Assembly: GCF_002005465.1 (NCBI RefSeq)
Contig: NZ_CP014691.1
Location: 310,001 to 374,000 of the forward strand
Source of the DNA: Neoasaia chiangmaiensis
GTDB taxonomy: Bacteria > Pseudomonadota > Alphaproteobacteria > Acetobacterales > Acetobacteraceae
Direction of reading: 5' to 3'
Length of the DNA: 64,000 nucleotides
Shown: piece after piece, positions 6,459 to 36,498 of the stretch
Numbering within the stretch: position 1 is the first letter of the stretch
Layout: each line of letters begins with the position of its first letter
Notes under the pieces: generated by a model
What the model saw: the letters and a program-made list of their open reading frames with translations, nothing else
Database searches by the model: none
Told to the model about the DNA's origin: nothing
Made by a program: the position numbers and the translations under genes

Positions 6459-7445
6459 CTATCGGCGATGCCGAAGAAGCAGGCCCGCCAGAATCGCACC
6501 GCCTGTAATCAGGCCCAGCCGCAGCGGGGCCGTCAACAGAAGCGGCGGTCGACCCTTGTCGCGATAGGGAACGGCCTCATAGGGGCCATGGGCAGCGAAG
6601 GCGCCGGGCAGGCTGTCCGTCAGCGTGTCGGACGTGGCGTCCAGCGGCACCTTATCGAATTGCCGCGAGAAACCGAATCGGGCCAGGAACCGATCTCTCA
6701 GCCCTGGCGCCAGAACGGCTGCGATGCTTGGTAATACGCCACCGGCTCCGACCCATAGCTCGCGGTGATGTCCGAAGATCGCATGGGAAATCGCGTTCGC
6801 CGCGACCTCAGGCTCGTAAATGCGCCCGACGGGTTTGAGGCTGTGGCCTGTGCGATTGCGGCTCCAGCCGAGGCGTGGCGTATTGATGGACGGCAGGTGC
6901 ACGACAGTGATGTCGATACGATCGCCGAGGCGGCGGATTTCAGGGCGAAGGCTGTCGCAGAAGGCCGTGATGGCCGCATGAGCGGCGACGTTGGCCGATT
7001 GCATCGGCAGGCCACGCAGCACCTGCGACATGCCGAGATTGACGATGGTGCCAGTCCCACGCCGTCGCATGCATTCCAGCGCCGCTTGCGTGCCATAGAC
7101 GCTGCCGAGATAGGTGACATTCGTCACACGTTGGATTGTCTCGGCATCAAGCGATATCGCCGGTCCGAAAGCGGCTTGCCCGGCTGCGTTGATCCATACC
7201 GTGATCGGCCCCAGTTCGCTTTCGACGCGGGCGGCGGCGGCCCGGAGAAGCTCTGCGTCAGAGACGTCCACCGGGATGGCGAGAAGACGGACATGCTTCT
7301 CGGCCAGTTCTGCCACGGCATCCGCCAGCCGTTCCTCGTTACGGCCGAGCAGGGCGATATCGAAACCCAGCGACGCCAGCATCCGCACTGTCGCGCGCCC
7401 GATTCCGGCGCCAGCACCGGTGACGACGGCGATTTGTTTGGTCAT
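6459..7445 (-). CDS. Short-chain dehydrogenase/reductase-fold protein lacking the catalytic Tyr and Lys
   Basis: 328 residues from ATG 7445. The Rossmann nucleotide site is intact: VVTGAGAGIGRATVR at residues 7-21, then VDVSDAELL and WINAAGQAAFG, so NADP(H) or NAD(H) binding is likely. The catalytic segment differs: where the family has Ser and then Y-x-x-x-K (usually QSAYCGAKHA), this protein reads LGMSQVLRGLPMQSANVAAH. Tyr is Asn and Lys is His. The C-terminus ends in a hydrophobic segment (GLITGGAILAGLLLRHRR), a possible membrane anchor. It lies 17 bases downstream of the YqaA-like gene, probably one operon. It may be a pseudoenzyme or use unusual chemistry. Confidence 0.8.
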   Translation of the reverse strand: MTKQIAVVTGAGAGIGRATVRMLASLGFDIALLGRNEERLADAVAELAEKHVRLLAIPVDVSDAELLRAAAARVESELGPITVWINAAGQAAFGPAISLDAETIQRVTNVTYLGSVYGTQAALECMRRRGTGTIVNLGMSQVLRGLPMQSANVAAHAAITAFCDSLRPEIRRLGDRIDITVVHLPSINTPRLGWSRNRTGHSLKPVGRIYEPEVAANAISHAIFGHHRELWVGAGGVLPSIAAVLAPGLRDRFLARFGFSRQFDKVPLDATSDTLTDSLPGAFAAHGPYEAVPYRDKGRPPLLLTAPLRLGLITGGAILAGLLLRHRR

Positions 7446-7462
7446 GGCTGTCTGCCCTCTCT

Positions 7463-8041
7463 TCAAAGATACTTCAACGCCGCAATACCCACGACGACGA
7501 GAATCAGGAACGCGGTCAGGACGAGTGTCAAGCGACGCTCGATGAATGCCTGTATCGGTTCGCCGAATATCCGCAATAATCCGGCGACCAGGAAGAAGCG
7601 CGCGCCCCGTGTCACGATGCTCGCGGCGATGAAGGGTAATAACGAAAAATGTGCCGCGCCGGCGGCGATGGTGACGATCTTGAAAGGGATCGGCGTCAGT
7701 CCCTTGATGAGGATGATCGCAATACCATACTGCACGAAGCGTGCCTGCAACGCCCGCAGCGTTGTTTCCGCGTGGTAGAAATGGACGATCGGCAGCGCGA
7801 CGTGCTGCAACAGGAAGGCGCCGATCATCCACCCGAGGACGCCCCCGGCAACGCTACCGATCGTGCAGATCGTCGCCAGCATCCATGCCCGGTCGCGTCG
7901 TGCGAGAACCATGGGGATCAGCAGAAGATCGACCGGCAAGGGAAAGAACGACGCTTCCGCGAATGCGATGCCGAAGAGCCAGAATGCCGCGTTCGGCGAC
8001 GCCGCCAGCCTCATGGTCCATTGATAAAGACGATCGAGCAA
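7463..8041 (-). CDS. YqaA/DedA-family inner-membrane protein
   Basis: About 192 residues with four to five hydrophobic helices. Motifs match YqaA-type SNARE-associated (VTT) proteins: FAEASFFPLPVDLLLIPMVL, then GSVAGGVLGWMIGAFL, then IILIKGLTPIPFKIVTIAAG and a Gly-Ala-Arg-Phe-Phe segment. The family is linked to lipid carrier transport and membrane homeostasis. Homologues begin close to RLYDWT; here a TTG at 8041 gives MLDRLYQWTMRLAASP, which fits best. The frame stays open to 8206 but that extension does not resemble the family and runs into the divergent gene. A downstream ATG at 8014 is the other option. The SDR gene follows on the same strand. Confidence 0.82.
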   Translation of the reverse strand: MLDRLYQWTMRLAASPNAAFWLFGIAFAEASFFPLPVDLLLIPMVLARRDRAWMLATICTIGSVAGGVLGWMIGAFLLQHVALPIVHFYHAETTLRALQARFVQYGIAIILIKGLTPIPFKIVTIAAGAAHFSLLPFIAASIVTRGARFFLVAGLLRIFGEPIQAFIERRLTLVLTAFLILVVVGIAALKYL

Positions 8042-8190
8042 GACGTATCCGCGTGGCGATTGATGAACGACAGGGAAGGGTGATCGCAGAAGGCGCTCTC
8101 TTCGGCAAGGGAGCGTCTTCGCGGGATTGTCATCGGGCGGCGAGAATTTCCGTGCCACTCTGTCGACGGTCAAGCGGGAGAATTCGTCGC

Positions 8191-8712
8191 ATGCGAAAGC
8201 GCGCAAGGATCATGGCATGGGTGGTGGCAGTAGCATCCGGATCGGTCACGGTGCCGGCCATGGCGCAGCATCTGGTCACGACACAAAAACTGGACTGGCG
8301 CACGGCGGAGAAACTCGCGGCACTTGCCGTGGAAGACTGCGCCGGCAAAGGCTGGTCCGTGACCGCGGCGGTCGTCGATCCGACCGGGCATGAACAGGTC
8401 GTCATCAAGGGCGATACGGTACCATTGCAATCGCTCTCCGTATCGTATCGGAAGGCCTATACGGCATATTCCTATGGGCAGGCGTTCGACAAGGATACGA
8501 CGAGCGCGTTGATCGACGCGCATCTCTCCGGCCCTCCCAACGGCGCCTTGAATACGATCCCGGAAGTGCTGTTCGTTCCGGGCGGCGTGACACTGCGCAA
8601 GGCCGACCGAACGGTGCTCGGCGGCATCGGCGTTTCAGGTGCGCCCGGCGGGGAAAAGGATGAGGCTTGTGCCATGGAAGCCGTCCGAAAGATGCAGCCG
8701 GAATTTCACTGA
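8191..8712 (+). CDS. Exported GlcG/HbpS-family heme-binding-like protein
   Basis: 173 residues with a clear signal peptide (MAWVVAVASGSVTVPAMAQ). The mature part has the GlcG/DUF336 pattern: L-x-W-x-x-AEKLAALAVEDCAGKG, AAVVDPTGHEQVVIKGD, a KAYTAYSYG segment, and the final GGIGVSGAPGGEKDEACA. Family members bind heme or small molecules, and many occur as orphan periplasmic proteins in Acetobacteraceae. Its ligand cannot be told from sequence. It diverges from the YqaA-like gene and converges on the histidine kinase gene, with 18 bases between stops. Confidence 0.85.
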   Translation: MRKRARIMAWVVAVASGSVTVPAMAQHLVTTQKLDWRTAEKLAALAVEDCAGKGWSVTAAVVDPTGHEQVVIKGDTVPLQSLSVSYRKAYTAYSYGQAFDKDTTSALIDAHLSGPPNGALNTIPEVLFVPGGVTLRKADRTVLGGIGVSGAPGGEKDEACAMEAVRKMQPEFH

Positions 8713-8730
8713 CCGGGCCGCGTTCTGTTC

Positions 8731-10230
8731 TCACACAAGCAGCGTGACGATAGCGCGCAGACCACCTTCGCGACGGTTCTCCAGCCGCACGTCACCGCCC
8801 TGCGCCCGGACAATGCTCCGCGCGATCGCCAGCCCGAGACCGGTGCCCCCGGTTTCGCGATTGCGGCTCTGCTCGGCGCGGACAAACGGTTCGAACATGC
8901 GTTCCAGATCCTCCGGCGGCAGGCCGGGGCCGCTATCCTCGATCACCACCTTCACCCATCGCTCATCCTTTGCGCCTCGTTTGACCGTATAGGGCGCGGC
9001 AAGAATGACATGGGCGCCCCCGCCATATTTGATGGCGTTCATCACCAGATTGGTCAGCGCGCGCTTGAGGGCGAGCGAACGCGCCTTGATGCGAACCGGA
9101 ACGGCTGGTGCATCGAAGCTGATCTGGTCGGCGAAGTCGGGCGCACCTTCGCTGGCCTCATCCGTGATGGTCTGCAACAGGGCGCTGAGTTCCAGCGACA
9201 CCAGTGGCTCGCGGGATGCGCTGTCCCGGCCGAAAGCCAGCGTGGCCGATACCATGTTCTCCATCTCGTCGAGATCCGCCAGAAACTTGTCCCGGAGTTC
9301 ATCATCCTCGATGAACTCCGCGCGCAGTTTCAGGCGCGTGATCGGCGTGCGCAGATCGTGGCCGATCGCCGTCAGCATCACTGTCCGATCCGTTACGAAA
9401 CGCCGGATGCGCGCGGCCATGGTGTTGAAAGCGATGGCCGCGCGGCTGATTTCGGTCGGTCCGTTTTCCGGCAGCGGCGGGGCATTGACGTCGCGCCCCA
9501 ACGACTCGGCAGCCTGAGCAAGCGTCGCAACAGGTGAGATCAGCCGCTGCGTGCCCCACAGGATCAGGGCGCCCCCACTGACGGTCATCAGTAGAAACGC
9601 GATGAGAAAGGTCGGCGAGTCGAACGGGCTGGCTCTTTGTTCCCTGAAAGTCACGATCAACCAGCATTTTTCATCCGGCAGGAGCAGGGATATGGCATAG
9701 AATCGGGACTGCGGCGGATGACCGATGATGATGCGGCGCGGGTAGAGCCGTGGCGGCAGCATTGCCACATGCAGGATTGGCGGCAGTTCCTCTGCAAGGT
9801 TCATGCGTGGATCATGAGGCGGCTCAAATCGGCGCCCTGCATCGGGATCGGGTCCGAAATCGGGACCTGGAGGTGGCGGCATTCCGTGGGGCATCATACC
9901 GGGCGGCGGCATGCCAGGCGCTCCGTCCATCGGGTGACGGGACAGGAAGGTACGGCGCGCCGCCTCAAGCACACGTAACGGCATGGGAATGTCGGTCCCA
10001 TGCAATTTCTGGTCGGGCCTGTCGGACAAGACGACTGTGAAATTTGATGGGATATGCAGTTCGTTCAGGGTCGCCGGGCGTGCGGCAGGCTCCGTCTCGG
10101 CAATTGTGCGATAGATAGAAAAGGCGTGATGCTGGTTTTCGCGCAGTTCCGTACGTCTGACGACATCCAGATGGTCCAGCGCATGGATGGTGAGCCCGGC
10201 CATCTGGACGATGCACAGGCCGACGATCAA
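8731..10230 (-). CDS. Sensor histidine kinase, EnvZ-like, with a Met/Pro/His-rich periplasmic loop
   Basis: Membrane sensor of about 500 residues. An N-terminal helix (IVGLCIVQMAGL) is followed by a periplasmic domain, a second helix (FLIAFLLMTVSGGALIL), a HAMP domain, HisKA with the phospho-acceptor His in IGHDLRTPITRL, and an HATPase with N box (NLVMNAIKYGGG) and G boxes (EDSGPGLPPEDLERMFEPF, GGTGLGLAIARS). The start is uncertain: TTG 10230 truncates the first helix, while a CTG at 10293, overlapping the regulator's stop and with GAGG upstream, would complete it (frame open, no ATG or GTG). The periplasmic part carries a run rich in Met, Pro and His (GMPPPGMMPHGMPPPPGP), suggesting metal or acid sensing. 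Confidence 0.9.
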   Translation of the reverse strand: MIVGLCIVQMAGLTIHALDHLDVVRRTELRENQHHAFSIYRTIAETEPAARPATLNELHIPSNFTVVLSDRPDQKLHGTDIPMPLRVLEAARRTFLSRHPMDGAPGMPPPGMMPHGMPPPPGPDFGPDPDAGRRFEPPHDPRMNLAEELPPILHVAMLPPRLYPRRIIIGHPPQSRFYAISLLLPDEKCWLIVTFREQRASPFDSPTFLIAFLLMTVSGGALILWGTQRLISPVATLAQAAESLGRDVNAPPLPENGPTEISRAAIAFNTMAARIRRFVTDRTVMLTAIGHDLRTPITRLKLRAEFIEDDELRDKFLADLDEMENMVSATLAFGRDSASREPLVSLELSALLQTITDEASEGAPDFADQISFDAPAVPVRIKARSLALKRALTNLVMNAIKYGGGAHVILAAPYTVKRGAKDERWVKVVIEDSGPGLPPEDLERMFEPFVRAEQSRNRETGGTGLGLAIARSIVRAQGGDVRLENRREGGLRAIVTLLV

Positions 10231-27958: not shown

Positions 27959-30595
27959 TCAGTCTCCATGTGATGCCAGCCATTGCCGGGTCTGTGTCTG
28001 AATGCGTTCCGCGACGGCTGTTCGCGCACCAATAGCGTCCAGCGCGCGGGCCGTAGCAATCCGGGCGCCCGTGGTTTTCTGCGAAGCCGGATCGTTCTTC
28101 AGTTGCTCTGCGATTGCGGGATTCGACGTTGCGCGGGCGACGCCGGCCAAGAGCCCATCCTGCGACCATGGCGCGAGATGTGCGCGTATTTCGCTTTCGT
28201 GCTTCTTGACCAGTTGCCAGACCAGGTCCGGATTGCCGCTCTCTGCCGCAATCGCCGAGAGCGCCATGGCGATGCGCCCATCCGGAATGGCGCCGCTATA
28301 CGTCAGTTCCACATTACGTTCGATCAAGGCAGGGTCCGTTACGTGCGCGAGTGCGTTGAACAGACGCAGCTTCATCTCCGTGCTCTGCGCGTTCCGGACT
28401 TTTGTCGCCAGGAAGTCGTACGTGGCATCGTCGGCATGGCGTGCGGCAATCCCCGTGACGGGCGCTACCAGATTCGCGCGCAGGGATGCGGGATCGGTCT
28501 GCCAGGATTTGAAGCGCCGTTGTGCCTCGGCAATGACGGACGGGTCTTCCAGTTCCCCCAGTTCAGCGATCACGGACGGACGCAGCATGTCGTCCAGCAC
28601 GCTTTCGCCCGGCTTCGGGTCCCAGCCGAGCCGGTTCATGGTGGGGTTCAGAACGCGCCGCGCGAAATCCTGGAAAGCCGGGCGTGTGGCTTGATGACGC
28701 TCGGCATCGTTGATCGTATCGAGACGCTCGATAACATCCTCGAGTACGGCGATATCACGCTCGTTTTCGCCGGGCAGGGCGCTGGTGAGATCGAGATAGA
28801 CCGAAAGCGTTGCTTCTCCGGCTTCGAACAAGGCATATTGATCGCCAAGCAGGTTGGCTCGATCGACAGGTGCGAACGTGGCGAACGATTTCATCAGCGG
28901 TGCCAGGGCACGGGTATCGTAATGGACCCGATAATAACCGCTTTCGCCCAGATCGAACTTCAAAGGCGCCTCACATGACGGCACGGTCATCGTCGCAGGC
29001 TGTGCGCCAAGAACAAGCTTTCGGGTTTCCAGACCAGGGCCGCCGGCAATGACCGGCACGTTCCAGCGTAGTGCGCGAGGATGGGGATCGTGAATCGCGA
29101 AGCGGCTTTGCGTCAGCGTATAGACACCTTTGCCGCTCTGGCATGTAAGCGCGACATTGATCTGGGGAATGCCGGGCTGTTCGACGAAACTGCGTGCGAC
29201 GCGACCGACATCCTGCCCTGATGACCGAGCCAGGGCGTCCCACAGGTCCTGACTGGTCGTGTTGTTATAGGCGTGGGATTTCATGTAGATGCGCATGCCG
29301 TCCCGGAACGTATCCTCGCCGAGCCAGCCTTCGAGCATGCGGATGACGAGTTCACCCTTGCCATAGCTGATGCTGTCGAAAGCGGAGTTCGCTTCGCTGA
29401 CATTGTGGATGACCTGCTGGATGGGATGTGTCGTCGGCAAGGCATCCATCGCCATCGTGTGTTCGCGAGCGTCATGCTGACGCGGCCAGATGTCCCAGTC
29501 CGGATTCATCTTGTCGGTGGCCTTGATCTCCATCCAGCTCGCAAAGCCTTCGTTCAACCAGATGTTGTCCCACCAGCCCATCGTCACGAGATCGCCGGAC
29601 CATTGATGGGCCATCTCGTGCGCCACGACTTCATAGATGAGTTCGCGCGTGTGTGGCGTGCTGTTGTGCGGATCGAAAAGAAGGACGTTGTCGATATAGG
29701 TCAGGGCACCCCAGTTCTCCATTGCGCCAGCCTGGTAATTGCCGGGTATGGCGATCATGTCCATCTTCGGGAGCGGATATTTCGTGCCGAAATACGTGTT
29801 GTAGTAAGGCAGGATCTTTTCCGCGGCCCCGAGGGCGTATCTTCCCTGCTCCTGCAATCCGGTTGGCGCGTAAACGCCGATTGGCGTTCCATCTCCATTG
29901 CCGTGAACGGCTGACATGTCCCCTGCCACAAGCGCCAGCAGATAGGTCGACATGCGGGGCGTGGTCTGGAACGACACGCGCTTGGCGTCCGGTCCGGCTG
30001 CTGTCGTGGCTGTCACGGGCATGTTGCTGACAGCGACGTCTTTGGATGGCAGGGTGACGTTCAGCTGGAAGGTTGCCTTGAATGCCGGCTCGTCCCAGCC
30101 GGGAAACATCCGGCGCGCGTCTGCCACCTCGAATTGCGTGACGAGCATACGCCTTGGTTTGCCGTCGGGAGACTTATAATCGTCGATATAGATGCCATTC
30201 GGCGTTTCGATAATCGGTCCGGTATAGTCGATGGCCAGCGTGTGGTGGCCGGCAGGCACGGGCTGTGCGAATGTCAGCGTGGCAGTCTGCGCGTCATCGT
30301 CCTGCCTGATCGCGGCGACCATGCCGTTATCAAGTCTGGCGCTGGAAAGCTTGAGACCGGCCTGATTGAGCGTTACGCTTCTGGAGGGCGAAGCGACGTC
30401 CAGTGAAATCGTCTCCTTTCCGCGCAAGCTCAGACGGTTCAGGTCCGTCGTGATATCGATCATATAGGCTGTCGGGATAACATTTTTCGGAAGTTCGCCC
30501 GGTGCCGAAGCAAAAGAAAAAGGAGCCTCCGCGAAAGCCGACGCGGTAAAGGGAAGCCCGGCCATGAGCGTGGTGAGGGCCAATAATCGGCGCAT
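27959..30595 (-). CDS. Exported M1-family metallo-aminopeptidase
   Basis: 878 residues from ATG 30595, starting with a signal peptide (LLALTTLMAGLPFTASAFAE), so it acts in the periplasm or outside, unlike cytosolic PepN. The M1 signatures are present: GAMENWGAL for the substrate N-terminus, the zinc motif VAHEMAHQWSGDLV with the third ligand in LNEGFASWMEIKA. An ERAP1-like C-terminal helical domain follows. It should release N-terminal residues from peptides. The frame is open 34 codons farther upstream, but that part is not signal-like. Confidence 0.93.
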   Translation of the reverse strand: MRRLLALTTLMAGLPFTASAFAEAPFSFASAPGELPKNVIPTAYMIDITTDLNRLSLRGKETISLDVASPSRSVTLNQAGLKLSSARLDNGMVAAIRQDDDAQTATLTFAQPVPAGHHTLAIDYTGPIIETPNGIYIDDYKSPDGKPRRMLVTQFEVADARRMFPGWDEPAFKATFQLNVTLPSKDVAVSNMPVTATTAAGPDAKRVSFQTTPRMSTYLLALVAGDMSAVHGNGDGTPIGVYAPTGLQEQGRYALGAAEKILPYYNTYFGTKYPLPKMDMIAIPGNYQAGAMENWGALTYIDNVLLFDPHNSTPHTRELIYEVVAHEMAHQWSGDLVTMGWWDNIWLNEGFASWMEIKATDKMNPDWDIWPRQHDAREHTMAMDALPTTHPIQQVIHNVSEANSAFDSISYGKGELVIRMLEGWLGEDTFRDGMRIYMKSHAYNNTTSQDLWDALARSSGQDVGRVARSFVEQPGIPQINVALTCQSGKGVYTLTQSRFAIHDPHPRALRWNVPVIAGGPGLETRKLVLGAQPATMTVPSCEAPLKFDLGESGYYRVHYDTRALAPLMKSFATFAPVDRANLLGDQYALFEAGEATLSVYLDLTSALPGENERDIAVLEDVIERLDTINDAERHQATRPAFQDFARRVLNPTMNRLGWDPKPGESVLDDMLRPSVIAELGELEDPSVIAEAQRRFKSWQTDPASLRANLVAPVTGIAARHADDATYDFLATKVRNAQSTEMKLRLFNALAHVTDPALIERNVELTYSGAIPDGRIAMALSAIAAESGNPDLVWQLVKKHESEIRAHLAPWSQDGLLAGVARATSNPAIAEQLKNDPASQKTTGARIATARALDAIGARTAVAERIQTQTRQWLASHGD

Positions 30596-30699
30596 TCTGA
30601 ACAAATCCTTGTCTGGTCGGCGAGTCGGCCGCGCGTATATCGCGATGACCGCCTGATATTGATACGATGACATATCGATGGCATGAGGCAAAGGCACTC

Positions 30700-30905
30700 A
30701 GTCCGCCCGTAGGTATTTCCCGAAAAGGAAAATATTTACAAGTATTATACAATTTATATGAAGAATATGTATTTCATTTCATTATGAAAACGCGGGTTTG
30801 ATTACTGAATAATTGCGGTGGATAGATGTAATCGCGCTTGATCGAACGCCATTTCCTTACGTTCGACGGCTGTCTTTCTCATCCGGCAGGAGAACGGTGC
30901 CTCTC
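30700..30905. other. AT-rich intergenic segment
   Basis: About 200 bases between the aminopeptidase gene and the hpnR remains. Bases 30722-30812 are markedly AT-rich (long runs of A, T and TA steps) against a GC-rich background. I see no gene in it. It may hold the promoter of the former hpnR gene and the aminopeptidase gene. Confidence 0.4.
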
Positions 30906-31494
30906 ATGCGACTGCACGCGATTCATCCCGGCGCGCTCACATACAGAGATGGTCCTTCGGCTGGAACCGCTGGGCGCGAACTCGTCGCGGACGCCGCGCA
31001 TGCCACGGGTCATGGTGTTCGGATCGTTGACCTCCAGATCGAGACCCACCGGGACTTATGGCGGATGATGGAGGATTTCCAACCGTCTGAACATACGAGA
31101 CTATCGCCTGTTCGATATCCAGCATGTGGTCATGCCGGCATGCGTCCCACGTCACGAATTTTATGAGAAACCGGTCAAGGCGCAGCAGGTGCTGAACATG
31201 CAACACATGGGACTCGCCGCTCTAAAAGATGCGAGCGGCATTGCCGCACACCTGGCCGCCAAAGGTCAGACGAATTTCCCGAATATGCTGTGGAAGTTCA
31301 ATACCGTCTTCAATTCGAAGCTACAAATCGCTGATTACGCCCGCACACCCCATTACGAGATGGCAGTGCAGCCGGAGGCCATGACGCAGATTAAGCGGAA
31401 AAAACTTTATATCCATGCTCCGGCAGGACGACGCAGGCGTTCGATCGACGATGTGACGGAGAAATTTGTCGATGAGACCCGGGCGGCATCCTGA
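30906..31494 (+). pseudogene. hpnR: Remnant of a hopanoid C-3 methylase (radical SAM, HpnR)
   Basis: Two ends of one gene remain. The 5' part from ATG 30906 reads MRLHAIHPGALTYR, then in the next frame EMVLRLEPLG, then in the first frame RELVADAAHATGHGVRIVDL. This is the N-terminal B12-binding start of HpnR (LRLEPLG-x-ELVA-x-AAR-x-x-GHEVR-x-IDLQ-x-E) with two compensating frameshifts. After about 31080 the sequence jumps to the C-terminal part in another frame: IRDYRLFDIQHVVMPACVPR, VLNMQHMGLAAL, TNFPNMLWKFNTVFN. The roughly 300 residues between, including the CxxxCxxC radical SAM centre, are gone. The protein cannot be active. Confidence 0.7.
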
Positions 31495-31512
31495 TTCTCC
31501 GAGGTGTGATAC

Positions 31513-33753
31513 TCACCCAGGCCAGGACTTGAGCGACACGACATTGCCGCCCGATGGCTCGTCATTCGTTGCGGATGTCGAGGCTGAGTCCTGCAGGATG
31601 CCAACGATCCGTCGTATGAGATTATCGCGAGAGAAGGGCTTGCCGATCAGGTTCACACCGTCATCAAGACGACCGTGATGAACGATGGAATTCTCGGTGT
31701 AACCGGACATATAGAGCACCGGCACATCGGGGCGAAGAGCGGCAACCCGCTGCGCCAGATCACGTCCGCGCAGTTCGCCGGGCAGCATCACGTCGGTCAG
31801 AAGGAGGTCGATCTCCCCGATATGGGTGCCGAGGAGGCGCAATCCTTCCTCGCCGTCCGCGGCACTGATGACCTTGAAACCGAAATCTTTCAGAATGGCG
31901 ATCGTCACCTCGCGGACGGCGGCTTCGTCCTCCACGACCAGGATCGTCGCCGCAGATGACGGCATGACAACCGGCTCGATGGACTGCGTCGATGTCGCCT
32001 GCGCTTCTTCGATGGAACGGGGTAAATATAGTCTTACCGTCGTGCCGGCATCGACCTCGGAATAGATTTTGACGTGGCCGCCGCTTTGCTTGACGAAGCC
32101 GAAGACCATGGCCAGTCCGAGACCCGTTCCCTTGCCTTCGGCCTTGGTGGTGTAAAACGGTTCAAACACACGGCTGACGATTTCCGGTCGCATGCCGTGG
32201 CCGGTATCCGATACGGCGACCATCGTATAATCGCCGGGCGTCACCTCCGAATGCAAACGCGCATATTCTTCGTCCAGAACGACATTCGCGGTCTCGATCG
32301 TCAGACGACCGCCGTCAGGCATGGCATCACGGGCGTTCAATGCGAGGTTGAGCACGGCGTTTTCGAGCTGCGCGGCATCGGCCATTGCGGGCCAGAGACC
32401 GGCACGTTCGACATAGCGGATATCAATATGCTCGCCGAGTGTCCGGGTCAGCAAGGGCACGAGATCGGGCAAGGCTGTTGCAAGATCGATCGGCTTTGGC
32501 GACAGCGGTTGCTTCCGCGCGAAAGCCAGCAACTGTGCCGTCAGGGTCGCGCCGCGCCTGGCGGCCCATGAGGCGCGTTCGATCTTCTTTTGCAGATCGG
32601 GCGCGTTCGCCAGCTTGCTGTTCACGAGCTCCAGATTGCCCAGAACAACCGTCAAGAGGTTGTTGAAGTCGTGCGCGATACCGCCGGTCAACTGGCCTAT
32701 GGCTTGCATCTTCTGCGACTCCCGCAGAACAGCCTCGGCCTGGGCGCGTTTCGTCATGTCCGTCAGCGTCAGGATAAATCCGCCATCCGGCATTGGCGAA
32801 CGTCGGATCTCGACCTGGCTGCCGTCGCTGCAATGGCGGCTGTAGACGATGGACTCGTTTCGCTTGGGACGGGAGAGGCGCAATTGCGCTTCAGTTTCCA
32901 GAAATTCCCCTTCCGACTCAGCCAGGTAGTCGACAAGCGTCGTGTAGGATGTCCCATTCCGAACTAGGGCTTTGGGTAATTTCAGCAACGACTGGAAGCA
33001 GGCATTCCAGTTCACCAACTGCCGGCTTGGGGAAAAAACGCCGACGCCTTGCGTCAGGCTGTCGAGCGATGCCCGCAGCTGGGAGGCAACCTGACGCTGC
33101 TGTGCTTCGAGCACATAGGCATTCGACCACGCCCGGTTCAACATGCGCGCGGCCCAGACCAGCGCGATGGCGGCAAGGACTATACCGCTGATTACCAGCC
33201 AGCGCACCCGTATGGCGCGTGTGTCCGCCGTCTGCTGATGCTGTGCCAACACGATATTTTCGTGCTGCGTCATCTTGTCCAGTATGGCGACGATCGCAAC
33301 CGTATAGTTTCGCCCCGCATCCGTATTGACGGCGGTAAGGGCGGCATCCAGGCCGACTGTGCGTCTGAGCACGATCGTCTGCGCCAGTTCTTCCAGTTTT
33401 TTCTGCAGGATGGGGTCGAGTGCCGCAATGCTGTCGCGTTCGATGCTATCGTCGTTCGCCAGTCTCTGTAGCTTGCCCGCAAGGCGGGTTACGTGTGCGA
33501 TGGAAGAATTGTAGGGGGAGAGATAGGTGTCGCGGCCAGTCAGAAGATAGCCACGCTGTCCCGTCTCCGCATCGCGGAGCGCGATATTCAGATCCTTGAT
33601 CGTCAGCAGCACGTCATTGGCGCGCTGCGTCCATAATCGCGCCGAGCGCGCCATGTCGATCTGATTCCACGTGGCACCACCGACCAAAGCGAGGACCGCG
33701 ATCAACATGATGAGCACGGTCAGATTGGCGCGTGCGACAAGGTGTTTCGTCAT
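31513..33753 (-). CDS. CHASE3 hybrid sensor histidine kinase with C-terminal receiver
   Basis: About 746 residues. Order: TM helix (LTVLIMLIAVLALVGGATW), periplasmic CHASE3 domain (ALRDAETGQRGYLLTGRDTYL), second TM (WLVISGIVLAAIALVWAARM), a PAS-like region (LTQGVGVFSPSRQLVNWN), HisKA with phospho-His in GGIAHDFNNLLTVVLGNLEL, HATPase (NLALNARDAMPDGG; FEPFYTTKAEGKGTGLGLA), and a receiver (ILVVEDEAAVREV; LLLTDVMLPGELRG). ATG 33753 is preferred over ATG 33786. It has no adjacent regulator gene other than the LysR, so its output partner is unknown. Confidence 0.9.
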   Translation of the reverse strand: MTKHLVARANLTVLIMLIAVLALVGGATWNQIDMARSARLWTQRANDVLLTIKDLNIALRDAETGQRGYLLTGRDTYLSPYNSSIAHVTRLAGKLQRLANDDSIERDSIAALDPILQKKLEELAQTIVLRRTVGLDAALTAVNTDAGRNYTVAIVAILDKMTQHENIVLAQHQQTADTRAIRVRWLVISGIVLAAIALVWAARMLNRAWSNAYVLEAQQRQVASQLRASLDSLTQGVGVFSPSRQLVNWNACFQSLLKLPKALVRNGTSYTTLVDYLAESEGEFLETEAQLRLSRPKRNESIVYSRHCSDGSQVEIRRSPMPDGGFILTLTDMTKRAQAEAVLRESQKMQAIGQLTGGIAHDFNNLLTVVLGNLELVNSKLANAPDLQKKIERASWAARRGATLTAQLLAFARKQPLSPKPIDLATALPDLVPLLTRTLGEHIDIRYVERAGLWPAMADAAQLENAVLNLALNARDAMPDGGRLTIETANVVLDEEYARLHSEVTPGDYTMVAVSDTGHGMRPEIVSRVFEPFYTTKAEGKGTGLGLAMVFGFVKQSGGHVKIYSEVDAGTTVRLYLPRSIEEAQATSTQSIEPVVMPSSAATILVVEDEAAVREVTIAILKDFGFKVISAADGEEGLRLLGTHIGEIDLLLTDVMLPGELRGRDLAQRVAALRPDVPVLYMSGYTENSIVHHGRLDDGVNLIGKPFSRDNLIRRIVGILQDSASTSATNDEPSGGNVVSLKSWPG

Positions 33754-33828
33754 ACTACTCAGGGAACCTAGCAGAAATCCGAACATCGGATTCGGAATGA
33801 ACGTGTAATCGCATCCGCAGCGACATAT

Positions 33829-34728
33829 CTAGGACGCCTTATCGCACAACGACCGCAAAATGCGTTCAAAATTCGCCACCGGCCCCGAAGAAGGCCGATT
33901 GTGGAACGCCAGCGCGATCGTCGAGCGTGGCGCAGGTCCGACGATGGGGTGGAACGTCGCGCCTTCCGCATGGATCTGGTCGAGATATGCCGGCACGATA
34001 CTGACCCCCATACCGGCCGCCACCATCGGAACGGTGGCGGCAATCTGCGGCGCGGATTGTCCCAGTCGCGGCGTGAACCCTGCCTGTTGGCATGCGGCGA
34101 TGATGGCATCGTAGAACCCGGGGCCGAGTTCGCGCTCGAACAGGATGAAGGGCTCATCAGAAATATCGTTCAGATGCAGGCAGCGTCGTCGCCACTTGTC
34201 GTGGCCTTTGGGTAAGGCAATGACCGTGCGCTCCTGCATCAGCGGCACGACGACGATATTCGGATCCGGTGCGGGCGGCCTGATGATGGCGATGTCCACT
34301 CGTCTGTCATGCAGGGCCTCACAGAGGGCCGGGGTGTTGCTTTCCTCCAGCGTGATGACGATCTCGGGCCATTTTTCCCGAAAGGCGCGGATGGCATTCG
34401 GGATGATCGGCAATAACGAGACGGCGCCCGCCATGCCGACGCGCAGGCGTCCCTGCTCGCCCCGCGCGAGACCACGGGCGAGGGAGAGGAACTCCGCTTC
34501 CATGGCGAGTATCGTGCGCGCCTGTTCGATCAGGATGCGGCCCGCTTCGGTTGGCACGGCACCTTGTCTCGAACGGATGAAGAGCACCAGCCCAAGTTCT
34601 TTCTCGAATGCCCGTATCTGCTGACTGAGCGGTGGCTGTTCCATATGGAGTTGGAACGCCGCGTGCGTGAAGCTGCCCGCTTCAGCGATGGCAACGATGT
34701 ATCGGAGGCGGCGAAAATCCATATCCAT
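33829..34728 (-). CDS. LysR-family transcriptional regulator, divergent from pdc
   Basis: 299 residues. N-terminal winged helix-turn-helix: DFRRLRYIVAIAEAGSFTHA, then QLHMEQPPLSQQIRAFEKEL and PTEAGRILIEQART. A LysR effector-binding domain follows (VGMAGAVSLLPIIPNAIRAF; MLVAAGMGVSIVP-like PMVAAGMGVSIVPAYL). The start is either ATG 34728 or ATG 34722. The divergent arrangement with pdc is classical for LysR regulators, so control of pdc is a reasonable inference. Effector unknown. Confidence 0.88.
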   Translation of the reverse strand: MDMDFRRLRYIVAIAEAGSFTHAAFQLHMEQPPLSQQIRAFEKELGLVLFIRSRQGAVPTEAGRILIEQARTILAMEAEFLSLARGLARGEQGRLRVGMAGAVSLLPIIPNAIRAFREKWPEIVITLEESNTPALCEALHDRRVDIAIIRPPAPDPNIVVVPLMQERTVIALPKGHDKWRRRCLHLNDISDEPFILFERELGPGFYDAIIAACQQAGFTPRLGQSAPQIAATVPMVAAGMGVSIVPAYLDQIHAEGATFHPIVGPAPRSTIALAFHNRPSSGPVANFERILRSLCDKAS

Positions 34729-34761
34729 ATCCAATTCATATGGAAAACATCGAATCCATAT
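34719..34761. promoter_or_regulatory. Four CCATAT half-sites at the lysR/pdc divergent promoter
   Basis: CCATAT occurs at 34719-34724, 34725-34730 and 34756-34761, and its complement ATATGG at 34738-34743. ATATGGA-N10-TCCATAT (34738-34761) is a perfect 7-bp inverted repeat, a spacing that suits LysR dimers. The two left boxes lie at the LysR start codons. Probably operator DNA for autoregulation and pdc control. Confidence 0.5.
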
Positions 34762-34821
34762 ATTGGACATTCATGTAACCCATGGCCCATTGTCTTTGCA
34801 AGATCAGGAAAGGGATGAAAC

Positions 34822-36498
34822 ATGGCTTACACCGTCGGGATGTATCTGGCCGAAAGACTGGCGCAGATTGGCCTCAAGCATCATTTTGCGGTGGCAGGAG
34901 ATTACAATCTTGTCCTGCTGGACCAACTGCTCCTCAACAAGGACATGGAGCAGATTTATTGCTGTAACGAGCTTAATTGCGGGTTCAGTGCAGAGGGATA
35001 CGCTCGCGCCCAGGGTGCTGCGGCGGCTGTCGTCACGTTCAGTGTCGGCGCGATTTCCGCGATGAATGCGATCGGCGGCGCCTATGCCGAGAACCTGCCC
35101 GTTATTCTGATTTCCGGTGCGCCAAATTCGAACGATCACGGTAGTGGCCACGTGCTGCATCATACGATCGGAACAACGGACTATGGCTATCAGCTTGAGA
35201 TGGTACGTCACCTGACCTGCGCTGCGGAGAGTATTGTCTCGGCTGAGAATGCACCCGCCAAGATCGATCATGTCATCCGCACCGCCCTGCGTGAGCGCAA
35301 GCCAGCCTATCTGGAAATCGCCTGCAACGTCGCAGGCGCTGAGTGCGTGCGGCCTGGACCGGTATCCTCTCTGCTGCCGGAAACGCCCTCCGATCTGACA
35401 AGCCTGCAGGCGGCACTCGATGCCTCACTGGCCTGGCTGGCACCACGCGACCGGGTTGTCCTGCTGGTGGGCAGCAAGCTCAGAGCCGCTGATGCGCAGG
35501 CGGTTTCCGTCGAGTTGGCCGATCGCATGGGCTGCGCGGTGACCATCATGGCTGCCGCGAAAGGTTTCTTTCCCGAAGACCATCCCTGTTATCGCGGTTT
35601 GTATTGGGGCGAGGTCAGCTCTCCGGGTGTGCAGGAGCTGGTTGAAAGTGCCGATGGCATCATATGCCTCGCGCCTGTATTCAATGATTATTCGACGGTT
35701 GGATGGAACGCCTGGCCAAAGGGTGACAACGTTCTGCTTGCTGAGCCCGATCGCGTTACTGTTGCGGGTCGTAGCTATGAGGGCATTGCCCTGCGTGACT
35801 TCATCAAGGGCATGACGGCACGTGCGCTGTCGAAGCCTGTCACCGCTCAAGGCACAACGGCACCGCGTCTCGAACTTGCGCAGGCCAAGGGCGATGCGCC
35901 GCTGACCAATGACGAGATGACACGTCAGATTCAGGCGCTGCTCAACAGGGACACGACGTTGACCGCTGAAACCGGCGACTCATGGTTCAACGCGACACGC
36001 ATGAACCTGCCCGGTGGGGCGCGGGTCGAACTGGAAATGCAGTGGGGACATATCGGTTGGTCGGTTCCATCGGCATTCGGCAATGCCATGGGCTCGCAGG
36101 ATAGACGCCATGTCCTGATGGTCGGTGACGGATCCTTCCAACTGACCGCGCAGGAAGTCGCTCAGATGATCCGTTACGAGCTGCCGGTGATCATTTTTCT
36201 TGTAAACAATCGTGGCTACGTCATTGAAATTGCAATTCATGACGGCCCCTATAACTACATCAAGAACTGGGACTACGCCGGGCTGATCGCGGCATTCAAC
36301 GCTGGCGAGGGCCATGGGCTTGGGCTGCATGCGAAAACAGGAGACGAACTCCAGGACGCTATAGAGAAGGCGGTCGCAAACAAGCGCGGGCCGACATTGA
36401 TCGAATGCTCTATCGCACGCGATGATTGCACAAGCGAACTGGTGAACTGGGGTAAGCGGGTTGCGGCAACGAATTCACGCCGTCCGGCAGCTGATTGA
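34822..36498 (+). CDS. pdc: Pyruvate decarboxylase
   Basis: 558-residue ThDP enzyme that turns pyruvate into acetaldehyde and CO2 in the cytosol. The sequence closely follows the acetic-acid-bacterial type: [38 protein letters not shown], catalytic Glu and HH pair in [16 protein letters not shown], ThDP/Mg motif [12 protein letters not shown] ending in [11 protein letters not shown] strong AGGAAAGGG precedes the ATG. Bacterial pdc is rare outside Zymomonas and acetic acid bacteria. A divergent LysR gene and CCATAT boxes are just upstream. Confidence 0.97.

Follow-up and report, generated by a model that had tools for sequence, protein, structure and literature searches.

The segment from 30906 to 31494 of the window (the whole stretch of 64,000 nucleotides analysed here, G000:C1:310001-374000, with a G+C content of 60.7%) holds, from an ATG to a TGA, the two separated ends of hpnR, the gene of the hopanoid C-3 methylase. 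Comparison with intact relatives makes it very probable that this is an hpnR pseudogene, which has lost its middle by deletion and whose ends are drifting unconstrained. The remnant, which was not found named in the literature searched, is laid out as follows.

30906..31085, plus strand: 5' remnant of hpnR, codons 1-61 of the intact gene (TIGR04367 profile positions 1-62)
30945..30980, plus strand: out-of-frame stretch (approximate limits), bounded by indels that amount to net -2 and -1 when set against G022 hpnR
31083..31085, plus strand: deletion junction with CCG microhomology, from the codon listing of both flanks in relatives
31084..31494, plus strand: 3' remnant of hpnR, codons about 376-511 plus the stop (profile to position 489), read in the +1 frame relative to the 5' remnant

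Homology to hpnR was found at both ends, and thus the identity of the gene and its limits stand as the first-pass annotation had given them. TIGR04367, the NCBIfam model of HpnR (490 positions, curated cut-off 650 bits), matched in a whole-genome search 30906-31088 at profile positions 1-62 (E 1.1e-9, 38.3 bits) and, separately, 31069-31422 at positions 370-489 (E 1.7e-39, 136.2 bits); as isolated proteins the N and C pieces reached E values of 6.8e-11 and 6.7e-40, and this family was the sole NCBIfam match of each piece at E <= 1. A match of the N piece to WS_DGAT_cat (Pfam; E 0.0076) lay below the cut-off and was taken as chance, and a search of the genome for the PF13282 (DUF4070) family gave no match, a result on which nothing here rests. 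Among 30 family proteins compared by BLASTP the closest to both pieces was the HpnR of genome G022 (locus L023), which shares 59% identity with the N piece (61 residues) and 67% with the C piece (140 residues). The remnant is therefore like HpnR in that both ends align clearly, the G022 protein being the nearest intact relative found, but it differs from it in that about 315 codons including the radical SAM motif are gone, the frame is broken and the score falls below the cut-off; neither a full-length match above 650 bits nor one continuous frame of about 510 codons, as expected of a functional HpnR, was found.

Relative to L023, 944 nt are missing, corresponding to bases 184-1127 or codons 62-376 (about 315 codons), in good agreement with the internal loss of some 300 codons that had been estimated from the letters alone. 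The DNA alignment to L023 breaks at base 183 and restarts at 1130 (1128 by codon listing). Across the join the window reads GAT TTC CAA CCG followed directly by T CTG AAC, and the G022 gene has CAA CCG CAC GCG to the left of the break and CGC CGC TTG AAT on the right side, the position of the join floating anywhere within the common CCG. Since 944 is not a multiple of three the frame shifts at the join, and translation from the old start stops at 31166, after 86 codons. The absent codons 62-376 include those of a CxxxCxxC motif (C195/C199/C202) that is invariant in ten intact proteins and that we take to be the radical SAM [4Fe-4S] cluster motif of HpnR; the deleted part as a whole presumably comprises the radical SAM core together with a portion of the cobalamin-binding N-terminal region. 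The CCG repeat at the join is short, only 3 nt, and we infer that slippage or illegitimate recombination removed the 944 nt in a single event. The course of events would thus start from a working hpnR, most likely inherited in a clade including G022, from which the middle 944 nt would have been removed, probably by one deletion between short CCG repeats; this would have cost the gene its radical SAM core and thrown its 3' part out of frame, and both remaining ends would then have drifted without constraint.

The N piece also carries small indels, to which the first-pass annotation made no reference. Its DNA alignment to L023 contains three single-base gaps, and the DNA and protein alignments together place approximately codons 13-25 out of frame, after which the frame is restored. 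If the source is the assembly CP014691, described as built from PacBio reads only, at 59x, with 3.40 Mb in one contig and 61.5% G+C (PMC5399254), these single-base indels could be sequencing errors. The relative order of the small N-terminal indels and the 944-nt deletion is likewise something we infer, and it is quite possible, if somewhat doubtful, that frameshifts or point mutations inactivated hpnR first and that the 944-nt deletion was a later, secondary erosion. The separate small indels of the N piece and its substantial decay would suit such a sequence of events, as would the frameshifted hpnR copies of two other lineages (G276 and G129, see below), but the order of events is unreadable from one sequence, and inactivation before the deletion would be a sub-version of the pseudogene reading and not an alternative to it.

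That the two ends have escaped selection was apparent from both residue counts and branch lengths. We called a residue near-invariant if 98% or more of a set of 75 distinct intact HpnR proteins share it, the set being obtained by merging 90 loci (L004-L027, L084-L149); each intact row was counted against the rows less than 85% identical to it, and rows L028-L033 and 14 Paraburkholderia loci were left out of the count and kept in the tree. By this measure 14 of 72 near-invariant residues are changed in the C piece, including the non-conservative L405P, L398R and E404K, and 11 of 34 in the N piece (5 of 26 not counting the shifted codons), against at most 4 (C) and 2 (N) in any of the 75 intact proteins. 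In the HpnR tree (95 rows, 184 columns), whose bootstrap had not settled and in which the placement of long rows is unsure, the remnant groups with G022 as its sister (100/90), and its end branch measures 0.62 versus 0.055, that is, 11 times as long. The GlyS control tree gave end branches of 0.28 for the genome of the window and 0.12 for G022, a ratio of 2.3, and a faster genome-wide rate would accordingly explain only part of the length of the hpnR branch.

These measures bear on whether the organism does have the middle of hpnR and assembly simply collapsed it. Only long reads, it is true, went into the likely source assembly (PMC5399254), but a collapse would leave the ends conserved, whereas 14/72 and 11/34 near-invariant residues are changed; an end branch 11 times that of the sister gene is not what a collapsed intact gene would show, and the break points, as judged by the G022 gene, have only CCG in common. 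We therefore regard an assembly error as extremely unlikely. Only marginally less remote is that the C-terminal open frame has been kept as a small protein in a new role. This frame is open over its whole length (31084-31491, with a GTG at 31126, giving 122-136 codons), and its third-position differences to relatives still exceed those at first and second positions, although divergence before the loss would give the same pattern. On the other side stand the changed near-invariant residues just listed for the C piece and its lack of any Pfam match at E <= 1. Moreover, when neutral drift was simulated up to 12 changes at near-invariant residues, which took about 0.086 substitutions per site, the C frame stayed free of stops in 35% of 3000 runs; indels were not simulated, so that the share with a fully open frame would be lower than 35%.

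For the same reason, since 35% of neutral runs keep it open, the open C frame says little about age. The first-pass annotation had taken it as a sign that the event was recent; as evidence this is weak, and recency itself runs against the changed residues of both pieces, the long end branch and the indels of the N piece. Recency of the loss is thus not supported, and in hpnR of the window we appear to see a pseudogene that has been decaying for some time.

The genome around the window is a single contig of 3,407,860 bases, 99.99% complete, and is the one genome of its genus in our sample. Searching it with TIGR04367 returned no intact HpnR elsewhere, the three hits being the two pieces and HpnJ; the intact paralogue that had to be looked for was thus not found. 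The third hit, at G000:C1:303921-304823 with 67 bits, had been a possible paralogue and was rejected, as it scores 824.6 bits as HpnJ against a cut-off of 577.6. It belongs to a cluster just upstream of the window in which each gene exceeds the cut-off of its family.

G000:C1 about 302774-308770 (L164 10774-16770): hpnK-hpnJ-hpnI-hpnH, assigned by family cut-offs

HpnH was recovered also by a separate genome search, and shc, encoding squalene-hopene cyclase, scored over its cut-off at 2.53 Mb, apart from the hpnH-hpnK cluster. Among the hopanoid genes tested (shc, hpnH, hpnI, hpnJ, hpnK and hpnR) only the C-3 methylase is lost. Because the backbone genes are intact, hpnR is broken and no second copy was found, the membrane hopanoids of this organism are predicted, from its gene content, to be devoid of C-3 methyl groups. 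In Table 2 of a published survey the one Neoasaia genome listed has Shc and HpnH and has neither HpnP nor HpnR (PMC12583986), and this row agrees with the loss of HpnR in our genome.

The surroundings of the remnant were compared with those of intact hpnR genes, the neighbours in the window being the following.

27959..30613, minus strand: aminopeptidase N family gene (pepN), TIGR02412 best match, below cut-off
31513..33786, minus strand: hybrid histidine kinase, best matches histidine kinase models, below cut-offs ('hybrid' is our reading)
33829..34770, minus strand: LysR-family regulator, best matches LysR-type models, below cut-offs
34822..36498, plus strand: thiamine-diphosphate decarboxylase, pyruvate decarboxylase-like, TIGR03393 best match, below cut-off; the specificity for pyruvate is our assumption

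Genome G078 (L167) carries pepN, kinase, LysR and decarboxylase genes in the order and on the strands of the window (27959-36498). An AT-rich spacer occupies in G078 the place where the window holds the hpnR remnant, and no hpnR remnant was found when looked for between its pepN and kinase genes; this genome is also without an HpnR hit over the cut-off, among the matches listed. Either hpnR was wholly lost in G078 or the lineage of the window acquired it by insertion at this site. Among 18 hpnR loci fetched (16 intact, 2 degraded) no match to pepN lay beside hpnR. In the Tanticharoenia locus L040 the decarboxylase has a 62.6% match, upstream of hpnR by about 2 kb; the kinase has matches of 26-41% several kb from hpnR in L042 and L043, and two other genes of the window have weak matches (23-36%) in L042, L051, L052 and L054. 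The hpnR neighbourhoods of Acetobacter, Gluconacetobacter, Komagataeibacter and Novacetimonas are partly common (families F1, F3, F4, F6 and F8, 13 loci); these five families were not seen at the hpnR loci of G022, Tanticharoenia or G294, and the genes of the window gave no match to them. A DNA search with 30600-31700 of the window against 20 genomes found short matches in 2 of the 19 others, both at the kinase end. Thus, among the genomes compared, hpnR at this site was not seen intact in place.

As for the origin of the gene, the nearest sampled genome by GlyS is G022, at 76% (257 of 299 genomes, the window's own included, were matched at E <= 1e-150), and the same genome holds the nearest HpnR. 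Vertical descent with the G022 clade is on both accounts the simplest reading, and hpnR was most likely inherited in this way, although the matter is not fully settled: in the GlyS tree the window, G022, G078 and G036 form an open fork. What counts against descent with G022 is PepN: at E <= 1e-100 it has no match in that genome, and its closest match, at 70%, is in G278, of the genus Gluconobacter (a genus name taken from an HpnR identical to L134). The G022 hpnR itself (L037 3983-10504) lies between two transposase-like genes at some distance, of the rve and DDE_3 families, the first of which is separated from hpnR by a GntR-aminotransferase gene; such flanks would fit some mobility of the gene. 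A cellulose synthase operon lies near the G022 hpnR, on a 177-kb contig.

Looking beyond the window, an HpnR match over the cut-off was obtained in 34 of 299 family genomes, among the matches listed; in one of the 34, G252, HpnR is cut by the contig end, and partial matches in another two genomes, G220 (where the contig ends) and G040, represent fragments. Besides its intact hpnR, G013 bears two short HpnR-like fragments, at C1:1189401-1189646 (profile 226-307) and 1267150-1267347 (profile 394-458). A scan of the genome contigs with an alignment of intact proteins supplied the named loci, the best 80 of 261; with the C piece alone such a scan turned up no relative. In at least two other genomes of the family sample, G276 and G129, hpnR is clearly degraded. 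The hpnR of G276 (L049, about 7328-8547) resembles that of the window in having an internal deletion over the CxxxCxxC codons, in addition to frameshifts. Its deletion, however, spans 315 nt (L011 bases 571-885), with other break points and in another lineage, genus g42, which holds HpnR proteins identical to those of named Gluconacetobacter loci; its decay looks younger, since outside the deletion its DNA still shares 89-90% identity with the intact L011. The hpnR of G129 (genus g53; L050, about 7574-9124) is likewise broken, into pieces in three frames with 3 TGA codons in the first, but differs from ours in having many small gaps and no single large deletion. With the window included, at least three decays of hpnR, in different genera, are seen within the 299-genome sample; weaker remnants would have escaped this count.

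In the same Table 2, Shc and HpnR hits number 78 and 58, respectively, for Acetobacter, against 68 and 13 for Gluconobacter (PMC12583986). According to that survey, 4 of 12 hpnR-bearing species made no 3-methylhopanoids in culture, among them Gluconobacter oxydans and Gluconacetobacter diazotrophicus (PMC12583986). The patchy presence and use of hpnR is already known, and to this the remnant adds direct evidence of loss; as judged from the genomes compared, the window is one case of a patchy, repeated loss of the gene. The finding fits the patchiness known from genome surveys and overturns nothing. It does provide a natural strain in which, as its genes predict, the hopanoid backbone is retained and the C-3 methylase gone, and which would be useful for membrane studies.

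As the remnant shows, this lineage, now scored as lacking hpnR, once had the gene, its absence here representing a loss and not the ancestral state. It is tempting to speculate, albeit tentatively, that acetic acid bacteria could well have lost C-3 methylation repeatedly, in independent events, frequently through erosion of hpnR alone with the remainder of the hopanoid pathway left intact, and that 3-methylhopanoids are dispensable in particular lifestyles. Were this true, the remnant would be one of several fossils making such losses datable and countable. When found in rocks, 3-methylhopanes are taken as signs of certain aerobic bacteria, and repeated loss would make them weaker as a lineage marker.
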